The notes beneath the pieces were generated by a model that did no database searches, had not been told where the DNA came from, and saw only the letters and a list, made by a program, of their open reading frames with translations. From contig WPIO01000092.1 in assembly GCA_009760855.2 (NCBI GenBank), positions 1,112,501-1,176,500 of the forward strand: DNA of 64,000 bases, written 5' to 3'. Shown piece after piece: positions 27,419-52,342 of this stretch. The position numbers and the translations under genes were made by a program. Numbering within the stretch: position 1 is the stretch's first letter; every line of letters starts with the position of its first letter. Source of the stretch: Cristatella mucedo. Taxonomy: Eukaryota > Bryozoa > Phylactolaemata > Cristatellidae.

Positions 27419-27553
27419 TTATCTTAAAATATACCTTGATACTACTGCCACTGCAATAGCACACATCAAACCAAATCCGATCACCTCTGCAATACGGCTA
27501 GGGAAGAAGTCATCCCAAAACATTTGATCTTCACAATACTCCATAAAGTCGCC
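27419..27553 (-). CDS. Bcl-2-like protein, locus A, exon 2 (BH2 end and tail anchor)
   Basis: Acceptor ATTATTTTTAG|GGC at 27554-27555, phase 0. It encodes 44 residues then TAA: GDFMEYCEDQMFWDDFF..., then a hydrophobic stretch EVIGFGLMCAIAVAVVS followed by RYILR. Joined to the Trp that ends exon 1, the junction reads NGW|GDFMEYC, matching the second half of a BH2 motif (NGGW-DAFVELY). The hydrophobic helix plus basic end is a standard C-terminal membrane anchor of Bcl-2 proteins. Confidence 0.78.
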   Translation of the reverse strand, partial: GDFMEYCEDQMFWDDFFPSRIAEVIGFGLMCAIAVAVVSRYILR

Positions 27554-27869
27554 CTAAAAATAATTCAACATGCAAATAATTAGTGTGCCATTTACTACAT
27601 CACAACATACAAATAATTAGTGTGCCATTTACTACATCACTCATAAATCCCATAAATTAAAATATCAAAGATATTTAGAGAAATCCTATTTAGTGAATCT
27701 ATTTATTTTGCCATTTTATTTGTGGGCACATGAAGGAAACTTATCGCGATAGGTTAAGCATTATTCAGTGAATCGTGAGTACAAAATAAAGGTTTATTAT
27801 CCAGCATTATTAACGGAAAAGATCGCTTATAAGCTTATGATAATAACTGCGAATATCCCTATTTATTAA

Positions 27870-28000
27870 TTGCTTATCAATCATGATATTACTCACCATT
27901 CAATCACGGTTTCCTTTTGCAGCCAACTTAAAGCGCCTACAAAGAGATTGAGTTCTCCGAGGGGGCTTTATCAAGTGCATTACTATTACTATTATTGTTA
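27870..28000 (+). mobile_element. L2-like LINE 3' tail in the locus A intron
   Basis: CAATCATGATATTACTCACC...AAAGCGCCTACAAAGAGATTG, then GGGGGCTTTATCAAGTG and (ATT)n. Confidence 0.8.
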
Positions 28001-28723
28001 TACTGGGGAGAAGCATCACAGAGGATAATTCTATTACGCCCTGGCCCTTTTAATCTAGCAGCAGTTTCAGGCAATTTCTATAACGATAACTTACTTGACT
28101 GATCTAGAACGGCTATCGGTCCGGCAGACAAAGTAGTGAAATGGTTTCAATCGCACGGGAAGCAGCCGCCTGCACGTAAATTCCGACTTCAATGCTCAAG
28201 TGGCTGATCAACTCTCCTAACCAGCTTCCTATGATGCTGCTGCTAGTGTAGTTGATGATTGTGTTTTAAGTCATCAAAAGATAAAGCGCATGTTCAACAT
28301 TCAATGAGCTGGATGAAGAGCTCGGAAATATTTTACTAATGTAATTTATCACCCTCTGTAACTTCACAAAGCCCCAAAGACTGTGTGGGTGTTACGCAGG
28401 AGAATTTCGTTTAGCCCACTCACAGCCTAAGCGGCCCTGGAAAAGCGGAAAAAGAGGCCCTGGCATTTTAAGCTTCCAAGAGTAGTCTCGAAAGAATTAT
28501 TTTCAAATTTACTAGATCTTTATTAGATCCTGAATCTTAAAAATGCGTTCAAGCCTGTTCTTAACACGGCGCGTCTTTTTGAAGTGTTTCGCTTAAGTGA
28601 AAAGAGTCAACGACTCTGTACACGGACAGAATGTAAGGGAGCATGCTTGTTAGCAGCACTCCTAAGTGTCATGTTCACCGCATCAGTAAGGGCACCAAAG
28701 CCCTTGACCTTGTCTGAGTGGTG

Positions 28724-28893
28724 AGCCGTGATGGCGCACTAGGTAAGGCGGTTGCTTTCACGACCTCGGCCCCGAGGTCGCGGGTTCGATTCCTGCGGTG
28801 GGCGATTCTTTATCGCCACTGCAAGCGGTGGTGATAGCCGTAAAGGCTCTTTTGTCGCTATACAAAAAGAGGCTGTTTAATCAGCTAGGATTT
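28724..28893 (+). repeat. SINE-A copy, well preserved, in the locus A intron
   Basis: GTGAGCCGTGATGGCGCACT, GGTAAGGCGGTTGC (A-box region), GGTTCGATTCC (B box), the hairpin GGCGATTCTTTATCGCC, CGCTATACAAAAAGAGGCTG, and the (TTTA)n end. A good reference copy for the family. Confidence 0.9.
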
Positions 28894-29123
28894 ATTTATT
28901 TAGTGCAGATCAAGAAGCTTCAATCATCAATGAATACAGCTAGTATTATTGTGCAGTAACTATCGGCTTTCCATTTGAAATTCAGACTCACTTGAGCCAA
29001 TATTGGAGTACGCATATGATACTTATCCTCCTGAAAGATTGTACTGAAACGGAACGTAAATTCTCAAGACAAATCGGATAAATTAATGTCTCTGGCGCCA
29101 AACTCGCTAACAGCCAAACTCAC

Positions 29124-49281: not shown

Positions 49282-49872
49282 CTGCAAACGGTAAGCAGAG
49301 ATTGAGCGTTAGCAGTGCTTGTACTTGTGTCATACTTGTTTCCTCGTGGCATTAAGCAGCTTCAATAGTCTTTTATTTGCCAAATGCTTCAGTTGTAATA
49401 CATTTTCTTTACTGAAAGACTGGACGTGCTTGGTTCATCTTCGACTAATTCTCCTACCAAATCGTTTCAGCCGACCACTTGTACGCGTTTTATTTCTCCT
49501 TCGGAAACACTCCGGTAAACTTCTTTTGAGTCTGGCAATAGGCGATGAATTCGGCCTACGACAAAAATATCATCGATTGTATGGTGATTATTAAGCGTCA
49601 CGAGTGTACCTTACTAAAGACATTCTAGCGAATTTCTAATGGAGCAGCCATCGTGGCACACAATCATTAAAAGTAGTGCTCTACATTTCGACTCAAAGCC
49701 TAAGCAGTAGCCTGTGTGCTTACAGTTTATCGATGAGTACGTGTTTACTTACTGCAACAGCCCACAGCAGCTCGATCGCGTCAGGTATTGTAGCGAGTCG
49801 AGCCCCACCAAAGGATTACAAAAAACTTGGCTCTGCTGCAAGCACGTTGCACGAATATATATGTACGTATGT

Positions 49873-49942
49873 ATATATATATATATATATATATATATAT
49901 ATATATATATGTATATATATATATATATATATATATATATAT
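49873..49942. repeat. (TA)n microsatellite, long allele
   Basis: Same position as 40467-40501 but longer, with an internal TATGTATA. Confidence 0.95.
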
Positions 49943-51078
49943 ACGTTAAATTCATATATTGTATAAGTATATATATTGACTATAATATGTATATATTTCT
50001 ATTTGTTTAACATATATTTATTTATTTATATCTGGTGCATGCTTTCACTTTGCTGCCTAGCCTAAAGTAACAATCATAGTGTATCTTTAAAAGCTGGTAG
50101 GGCGGCCCAGCTACATTAACCTCGAATTCTATCACCTTGAAGGCATTCGCCTAAACTTTAGCGGAACCACTTTTCCTACTGTCCGAGAGTGAACCTGCTC
50201 TCGAGTCCACATCTGTTGCATGGTGTATTTATTTCTGGCATCTTTTTAGTCATGCATCTGACATCGAATTTGCCCCGGCATTGGCAACCCAGTGTACATT
50301 CTGATCGGGGCTCGATTTAACAAATGAAGAAGCTGAATTTCCAGGGTTTATAGTTTATTAGTGATTCTTGGTAAGCCCCCAATCACAGGACAAATGAAAG
50401 TTAACCACCATTATATAGGCTATCTCAGGTATGTGTTTCAATTGTCATCTGAATCTTCTTATTTAAGAAGCATTGTAAATAACTGAGCAGTGATGTGATC
50501 AGTTGTGAGCAGTCAGTAATCTTTCGATATGTAAACGACTACTCCCACTGCGCGTGCATGCATCTGTACTGATTATTTTGGTGTCTCTCTATTATCTTTC
50601 TCAAAGGTTCTCTTTAATTGATTACTTTGGTAGTATGAAGGCAAGTTTCAGTATTTATGAGAAAGCTTAAAACATTCCGATCTTCAAAATTACAATCAAG
50701 CATACAAAGCATGGTGAATTCGCTGTTTCAGATTTAGTTTAAAATTTTGAAATTGGCAGTTGCGACTGTGCAAAGTTGAACAGATAGGCTAGCTGTAGAG
50801 TTCTGCTTCGACTGCGAGCGATTTAGAAATAGCCATGAAAACTTTCGCGTAGCCTGTTCCATCAGTCTAAAAATGACGTAACAACTGGGTCGTTGTACTT
50901 GGTCGTGATAACGCTATCTAACCAGGCAAAAGTATGTGCAATTGCTGTCATGAAAAAATGACCATGACCAGTAAGAGGGCAAGGCTTTCCATTTCTGATT
51001 TACGTCAGGTTTGCTTTTAAATATGATTAATGATTTATGCATTAAAATAGAGAGCATTATTTAGTTGAATGTGAATGA

Positions 51079-51790
51079 TGTTGTTAGTGACTCTTGATAA
51101 GCCTCCAACCACAGGACGAATAATGTAATGTAATGTAATATAATGAACAGAAGCCACCTGCCATTCCATAGGCTCCATCTCTCGTATTTGTTTCGATCGT
51201 CAGCAGATCTGAATCTTCCTATTTACAAAGCGTGGTAAATAACTGAGCAGTGTCTGTGATCTTTCGATACGTAAACGACTACTCTTACTGCGCATGCATG
51301 CATTTGTACTGATTATTTCGGTGTTTCTCTATCGTCTTTCTCAAAGGTTCTCTTTAATTGATTACTTTGGTAGTACGACGGCAAGTTTCAGTATTTATGA
51401 GCAAGCTTACAACATTCTGATCTTCAAAATTACAATCAAGCGTACGAAGCATGGCGAATTTGCTGTTTTAGCTTTAGTTTACAATTTTGAAATTGGCAGT
51501 TGCGACGGCGCGATGTTGAACAGATAAGCTAGCTGCAGATTTTTACATGAACTGCGATAACTTTTACATGAACTGCGAGTAGCCTTTCCCATCAGTCTAA
51601 CAAGGACTTAAAAAATGTGTCGTTGTACTTGGTCGAGATAACTTTATCTAACCAGGCACAAATATTTGCAATTGCACTAAACAAAGAAAATGGCCATGAC
51701 CAGTAAGAGGGCAAGGCTTTGCATGTCTGATTTTCTCGTTTGCTTTGAAATATGATTATGAACTTATGTATTAAAATAGAGAACATTATT
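51079..51790. repeat. Older, diverged partial unit inside unit E
   Basis: GTTAGTGACTCTTGATAAGCC through CTTATGTATTAAAATAGAGAAC corresponds to 40928-41645. Contains a (TGTAA)n stretch at 51122-51140. It is closer to unit B (34.97-35.1 kb: CTACATGCCATTC / CCACCTGCCATTC, GATCGTCAGCAGATCT) than unit C is. Confidence 0.8.
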
Positions 51791-51925
51791 TAGTTGAATG
51801 TAAATACTATTTTTGTATAATGGTTTCATCGTAATTAAATTTGAAAAGTTTGCTCCCAGATAGTGACGCCTGGTGAAAACCATGCCCTTAAGAGTGAGCC
51901 GCCTACGAATGCATAAAATGCTTAC

Positions 51926-52342
51926 CCAACCATCCTGGCTTCCCATTAATAGTGCCTGCATCGGCTGGTAGTTGACCAGAATTCGAAGCATGACGTCAGA
52001 AAATTGTAATCCTATGAAGGGTATTTTGAACTTGTTAAAAGAAAGCAACTCTCTAGAGAAGATGCAAAGCTCTACGAATCTGCTCCAGTTGAAGCCTTCG
52101 CCATCATAAGCTATATTCACGAGCCATTCGAGCTCATGCTGCCAGTTTTCATTCGAAAAAAATCTGTTCAGGATATGAGTCCGACTCGAGCGCTTCCAGT
52201 GCACGTCTTCGATGAGTGCTCGGAAGTGAGTGACAGCTGGCAACATGCAGTTGCATGGCCAGTCGTTTGCTTGAGCTGCCACGTCCATTAGAATGTAGTG
52301 CAGTATTTCGAATTGTTCGCTCCACCTTCTTTCTTCCGACAT
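51926..52342 (-). CDS. Bcl-2-like protein, locus E, exon 1 (BH1 and BH2)
   Basis: ATG at 52342 (MSEERRWSEQ); 139 codons to TGG and a GTAAGC donor at 51925, exactly as in locus C. BH1 GEGFNWSRFVELCIFSREL is unchanged from C. Differences cluster elsewhere: NCMLP for RSTLP, NRFFSNENWQHELEWL for NTMFSSENWQNELERL, and ALLMGSQDGW for ELLMESDDGW. An in-frame upstream Met at 52435 would add 31 residues, but locus C cannot use it. No in-frame damage. Conservation of BH1 against a changing background suggests the gene stayed under constraint after duplication (inference). Confidence 0.75.

Follow-up and report, generated by a model that had tools for sequence, protein, structure and literature searches.

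Is the run of open frames and decayed sequences on the minus strand of one contig of the bryozoan Cristatella mucedo an array of true Bcl-2 genes, and if so, how did it grow and what would its proteins do? The run lies in a stretch of 64,000 nucleotides (hereafter the window; C679:1112501-1176500) of a 572-Mb, 688-contig assembly, and the content of the window is animal-like, with exon-split genes, long interspersed nuclear element (LINE) reverse transcriptases and dispersed repeats. We found that three of its genes, A, C and E, together with F, a member of the same cluster outside the window, form a diverged branch within the Bcl-2 family, arranged as a tandem, one-strand cluster of live-looking genes and dead copies (B and D). 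The best explanation overall, to which we assign a probability of about 0.7, is that this diverged cluster grew by duplication and exchange and that its proteins restrain cell death.

The first coding exons of A (29124-29552), C (41789-42205) and E (51926-52342), all on the minus strand, are open over 143, 139 and 139 amino acids, as a preliminary description of this DNA had placed them. Each carries Bcl-2 homology motifs BH1 and BH2 (SWGR and NGW in A, NWSR and DGW in C and E) and, again in agreement with that description, the TGG of the BH2 Trp is followed by a phase-0 GT donor (GTGAGT at 29123 in A, GTAAGC in C and E). F, which that description does not include, has an intact first coding exon with a phase-0 GT donor after TGG, and a K in BH1 where A, C and E have Arg. 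A non-exhaustive genome-wide search with A exon 1 recovered A, C and E only (5 candidates scored) and missed F; the profile search of the flanks covered 110 kb on either side of the window (5000 of 284000 letters being N). A is 28-29% identical to C (29% over 124 amino acids), with a local score of 143, where the best of 1000 shuffles reached 56, and 25% identical to F, while exon 1 of C and E is 83% identical over 139 amino acids.

Bcl-2 identity is supported by PDB sequence searches, the A/C/E profile, fold, exon break and comparison within the genome, all of which agree. In the PDB sequence search, A was related to known Bcl-2 members in 47 of 48 matches, and its best Bcl-2 match rose from 16.1 to 19.9 bits once exon 2 was added; the same search with C alone gave no match. 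Among the best 60 of 154 PDB matches of a profile built from A, C and E, all 60 were related to known members, and the profile matched four ordinary Bcl-2 genes of the same genome with an hhalign E of 1.4e-7. Modelling gives seven-helix Bcl-2 bundles for the exon-1 products of A and C (for A, an AlphaFold model with a predicted local distance difference test score, pLDDT, of 79), with BOK and BAK among close fold neighbours and identities of 10-19% across the listed structural alignments. The predicted exon break after the BH2 Trp (the GGW position) recurs in A, C, E and F, and a sequence scan found a predicted C-terminal tail anchor in A, C and E. The PDB searches, the profile and the fold comparison thus bear out the Bcl-2 assignment that the preliminary description had made for A and for C and E.

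Some findings weigh against our preferred reading. A matches the Pfam Bcl-2 profile (PF00452) at 18.6-19.0 bits (E 0.002-0.003), below the curated cut-off of 31.4, and C, E and F have no match to it; this shortfall reflects atypicality, not descent, and weakens the claim that these are ordinary Bcl-2 members. The BH1 Arg is also present in Bak-like exons of this genome, so it is not specific to pro-survival genes, and because it fails to separate the two here, we lowered our confidence from 0.72 to 0.70.

In the mechanism that we propose, the BH2 Trp would mark the junction between the Bcl-2 bundle and a C-terminal membrane anchor, placing the proteins in the outer mitochondrial or endoplasmic reticulum membrane, and the groove would hold BH3 helices of pro-death Bcl-2 proteins via the BH1 Arg, restraining cell death. 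This Arg, part of SWGR in A and of NWSR in C and E, lies where helix 5 starts, and we take it to be the one that pairs with the BH3 Asp. Such pairing of an Arg of pro-survival proteins is given in a figure legend (PMC7022251). The BH1 Gly is Ser in C and E, and a review (PMC8998228) describes a Ser at this place in mouse Boo as changing BH3 selectivity. According to the same review, the coding sequence of a pro-survival gene is generally split into two exons at the GGW Trp of BH2, with the tail on the second, a layout also given for the sponge Amphimedon and for Bcl-2L1 of Trichoplax, and Bax, Bak and Bok generally have 4-6 exons. With two putative coding exons in A and two to three in C and E, the array fits the pro-survival gene pattern, as far as its exons can be inferred.

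The alternative that survives best, though we consider it unlikely, is that these genes encode pro-death proteins of Bcl-2 fold, such as Bak- or Bok-like effectors, or have moved to a task outside cell death. Pro-death BH3 regions carry an L-x-x-x-G-D motif, which A lacks at the aligned place in helix 2; the residues there are RRRMSAKL in A and FRALIEDV in C, neither canonical, in a part where the alignment is uncertain. C retains acidic residues near the BH3 position in the alignment, a point in favour of pro-death function, as are the close fold neighbours BOK and BAK and the BH1 W-x-R common to the array and the Bak-like exons; strong divergence also speaks for this alternative. Against it stand the separate Bak-like and Bok-like loci (our labels) elsewhere in the genome and the combination of a BH2-Trp break, a tail on the next exon and few predicted coding exons, which is a pro-survival layout according to PMC8998228.

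Tail exons were sought in the 4 kb past each donor as a phase-0 AG acceptor opening a short frame whose end region holds a hydrophobic 17-mer, and the scan returned one tail per gene in A, C and E, the same exons that had been proposed earlier. The sole tail for A, with three nested acceptors, is its putative exon 2 (27419-27553, minus strand), which holds the BH2 remainder GDFMEYCEDQ, a C-terminal hydrophobic tail and a stop. The tail exon of C (39799-39879, minus strand) reads LASRYTISAIGLSVLIGLLVGPFVRP and a stop, and that of E (49201-49281, minus strand) is identical. We also detected a possible middle exon, absent from the preliminary description, in C (40088-40153, minus strand; AEFIAYCQTQKKFTGVFPKEK, then a stop) and in identical form in E (49490-49555, minus strand). 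It is in phase 0 after a TAG acceptor and aligns with the start of A exon 2, where its AEFIAYCQTQ resembles the BH2 remainder, although the 17-amino-acid match (E 0.52) is weak by itself. This candidate may provide an alternative end of BH2, and C and E may have a soluble form ending at the middle exon, an anchored form skipping it, or a form with both exons, for which the one frame-keeping donor seen by eye, GTGTTT, is weak. A scan over 9 kb for a tail of F yielded 13 entries, of which several share a frame as nested versions, several look like repeat sequence and none is like the tail of A or C, so we accepted none.

C and E lie in duplicated blocks (39171-44053 and 48575-53899) that pair in pieces. 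The exon-1 segment of the E block (51244-52605) is 87.7% like C, compared with 98.6% for the upstream piece, 99.5% for the 3' part of the intron with the tail exons and 94.8% for the far end, and E carries two copies of one intron part that are 85% alike. This pattern, which the preliminary description had passed over, fits unequal exchange, with E a likely patchwork, its exon-1 segment being older than its flanks and tail exons, which are young and C-like; the cluster as a whole would have grown by local duplication and unequal exchange. Identities of 98.6-99.5% are also a normal distance between haplotypes in many invertebrates, and their presence in one flank, the 3' part of the intron and the tail exons would suit a false duplication, with two haplotypes placed end to end by the assembler. 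We judge such an artefact less likely than unequal exchange and quite improbable, given that the intervening exon-1 block differs by 12%, that E has the second copy of the intron part and that A, D and F are independent members regardless.

The mosaic offers a natural test of a change in BH3 selectivity, with the same core, different groove walls and identical tails. A more speculative reading, which we consider unlikely, sees the cluster as Bcl-2 grooves in rapid turnover, in which unequal exchange swaps exon 1 or keeps it as a cassette, tail exons are homogenised and the animal makes several BH3 traps. If so, the grooves may differ in BH3 taste through the BH1 Gly-to-Ser change and the variable helices 3, 4 and 6, with helices 1, 2 and 5 nearly invariant, and the drivers could be pathogens or symbionts interfering with cell death in the host. 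Changes between C and E avoid helices 1, 2 and 5 (2 of 53 positions, against 21 of 86 elsewhere; Fisher P 0.001), in a grouping chosen post hoc. We do not claim positive selection between C and E, a possibility that we weighed, as the ratio of nonsynonymous to synonymous substitution rates (dN/dS) is 0.65-0.74 by four methods.

The preliminary description had counted five loci with BH1/BH2-type sequence; A, C and E are indeed open and D is an A-like relic, while B is the weakest, its exon-1 piece matching D alone. Relic D (46608-46862, minus strand) resembles exon 1 of A, with an in-frame stop and a GC at the donor position after GDW. Its protein score against A is 72, against 25.0 +- 4.3 in shuffles (0 of 1000 as good), and not significant against C (340 of 1000 as good); the A/C/E profile detects it weakly in the window (E 0.13). 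In DNA, D resembles neither A nor C significantly (61 and 37 of 300 shuffles as good), so the link to A is at the protein level. We rejected D as an intron-less retro-copy, as it has TGGGCGAAT where A has TGGGTGAGT and a decayed donor explains it. Relic B comprises a 65-base exon-1 tail fragment (37580-37644, minus strand), a tail-exon remnant (32529-32696, minus strand) with 80% DNA identity to C and E and its stop codon lost, and intron pieces of C/E type (34678-36371, minus strand; 34678-35011 73% and 36201-36371 78% identical to E). The exon-1 fragment is related to D in DNA (0 of 300 shuffles as good) and not significantly to A or C (185 and 145 of 300), and it goes undetected by the A/C/E profile.

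B and D are dead copies, and we put little weight on the idea that A, C and E have likewise died recently or are unexpressed and merely look open. Such an idea draws on the dead neighbours, the crowding of the region with repeats, a C/E dN/dS that is not low and the absence of stops in both C and E, which has P 0.14 under neutrality and is by itself not telling. On the other hand, for A and C to have retained their open frames, donors and tail exons at an identity of 29% requires prolonged selection. Exon 1 of C and E differs by 42 base changes and 23 amino acid changes, where neutrality predicts 30.0 +- 2.7 (as low in 39 of 4000 simulations), and has no indels, against 8 in 941 noncoding bases (Poisson chance about 0.03). 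Finally, that these are unrelated helical proteins with chance BH-like motifs is barely credible, for although A, C, E and F match no Pfam family above its cut-off, and A has a sub-threshold hit to Calsarcin (E 0.079) and C one to DUF587 (E 0.04-0.05), the agreement of sequence, profile, fold, exon-break and in-genome comparisons strongly opposes it.

Elsewhere in the window we detected a dual-specificity phosphatase exon (9465-9932, plus strand; Pfam DSPc E 4e-30) with a weaker DSPc match upstream (3302-3895, plus strand; E 1e-9), a phosphatidylinositol phosphate kinase exon (13835-14344, minus strand; PIP5K E 1e-6) and the dimerisation region of a hAT transposase remnant (23136-23633, plus strand; E 4e-5). 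LINE-type reverse transcriptase copies lie at 54603-56018 and 10263-11237, with related stretches at 30.6-32.5 and 36.4-37.6 kb; the copy at 54.6-56.0 kb has a 471-amino-acid open frame with an RVT_1 match. A dispersed repeat of about 110-180 bases occurs in both orientations at 28.7, 31.2, 31.7, 35.6, 43.8, 46.1 and 53.7 kb and by eye looks like a short interspersed nuclear element derived from transfer RNA (tRNA), in which ARAGORN gives no tRNA. ARAGORN found no tRNA in the window, Rfam nothing there at the gathering threshold, and Pfam nothing in 10 other open frames.

In a large protein collection, A exon 1 and the A/C/E profile had no matches at E <= 10 among 72 and 494 candidates, respectively. 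The phosphatase exon of the window, used as a control, gave 19 matches at E <= 1e-10 (best 44% identity), of which 4 carried a source name and one an organism (a fungus); animal proteins seem thinly covered in this collection, so these nulls say little. Alignment A1, scanned against viral contigs, produced 53 pattern matches, of which none was confirmed.

The array can be set against other Bcl-2 genes of the same animal and beyond. The earlier picture of a few dispersed genes does not hold here, as a genome-wide Pfam list contains at least 8 other Bcl-2 loci over the cut-off. The ordinary genes L026, L027, L029 and L033 and the Bak-like L028 and L030 (our labels) have the BH2-Trp break as in the array; they differ in lying on other contigs, in exceeding the Pfam cut-off and in falling on the opposite side of a tree of 10 rows, which was drawn from this genome alone, with no outside species and with the short exon pieces L031, L032 and L034-L040 left out. 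L029 and L033, both divergent and Bcl-2-like, share a strand of contig C66 at a distance of 120 kb and are possibly a second small cluster. A, C, E and F are all missing from the Pfam list, and the Pfam profile is often the means by which Bcl-2 repertoires are counted (PMC4715348 being an instance); repertoires with diverged copies may accordingly be under-counted. The mixture of live-looking and dead members suggests gene birth and death in a family generally regarded as small and stable.

A search of titles and the starts of abstracts found no such array described in an invertebrate. Tandem expansion, held in the preliminary description to be unusual in animals, has a precedent and known parallel in mouse Bcl2a1 (A1), where, according to PMC9444066, three duplications gave three functional copies and a pseudogene. 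The two are alike in that one Bcl-2 gene, pro-survival in the mouse and probably here, was multiplied into live and dead copies, and they differ in that the mouse paralogues are described there as identical, whereas the identity of A is 28-29% with C and 25% with F, and C and E are mosaic. The array is unlike known Bcl-2 proteins in its 10-19% identity in structural alignments, its place below the Pfam cut-off, the Ser for BH1 Gly in C and E and the lack of a visible canonical BH3 in A. It is like them in the modelled seven-helix bundle, the BH1 W-x-R where helix 5 begins, the predicted exon break right after the BH2 Trp and the hydrophobic tail on the putative following exon.
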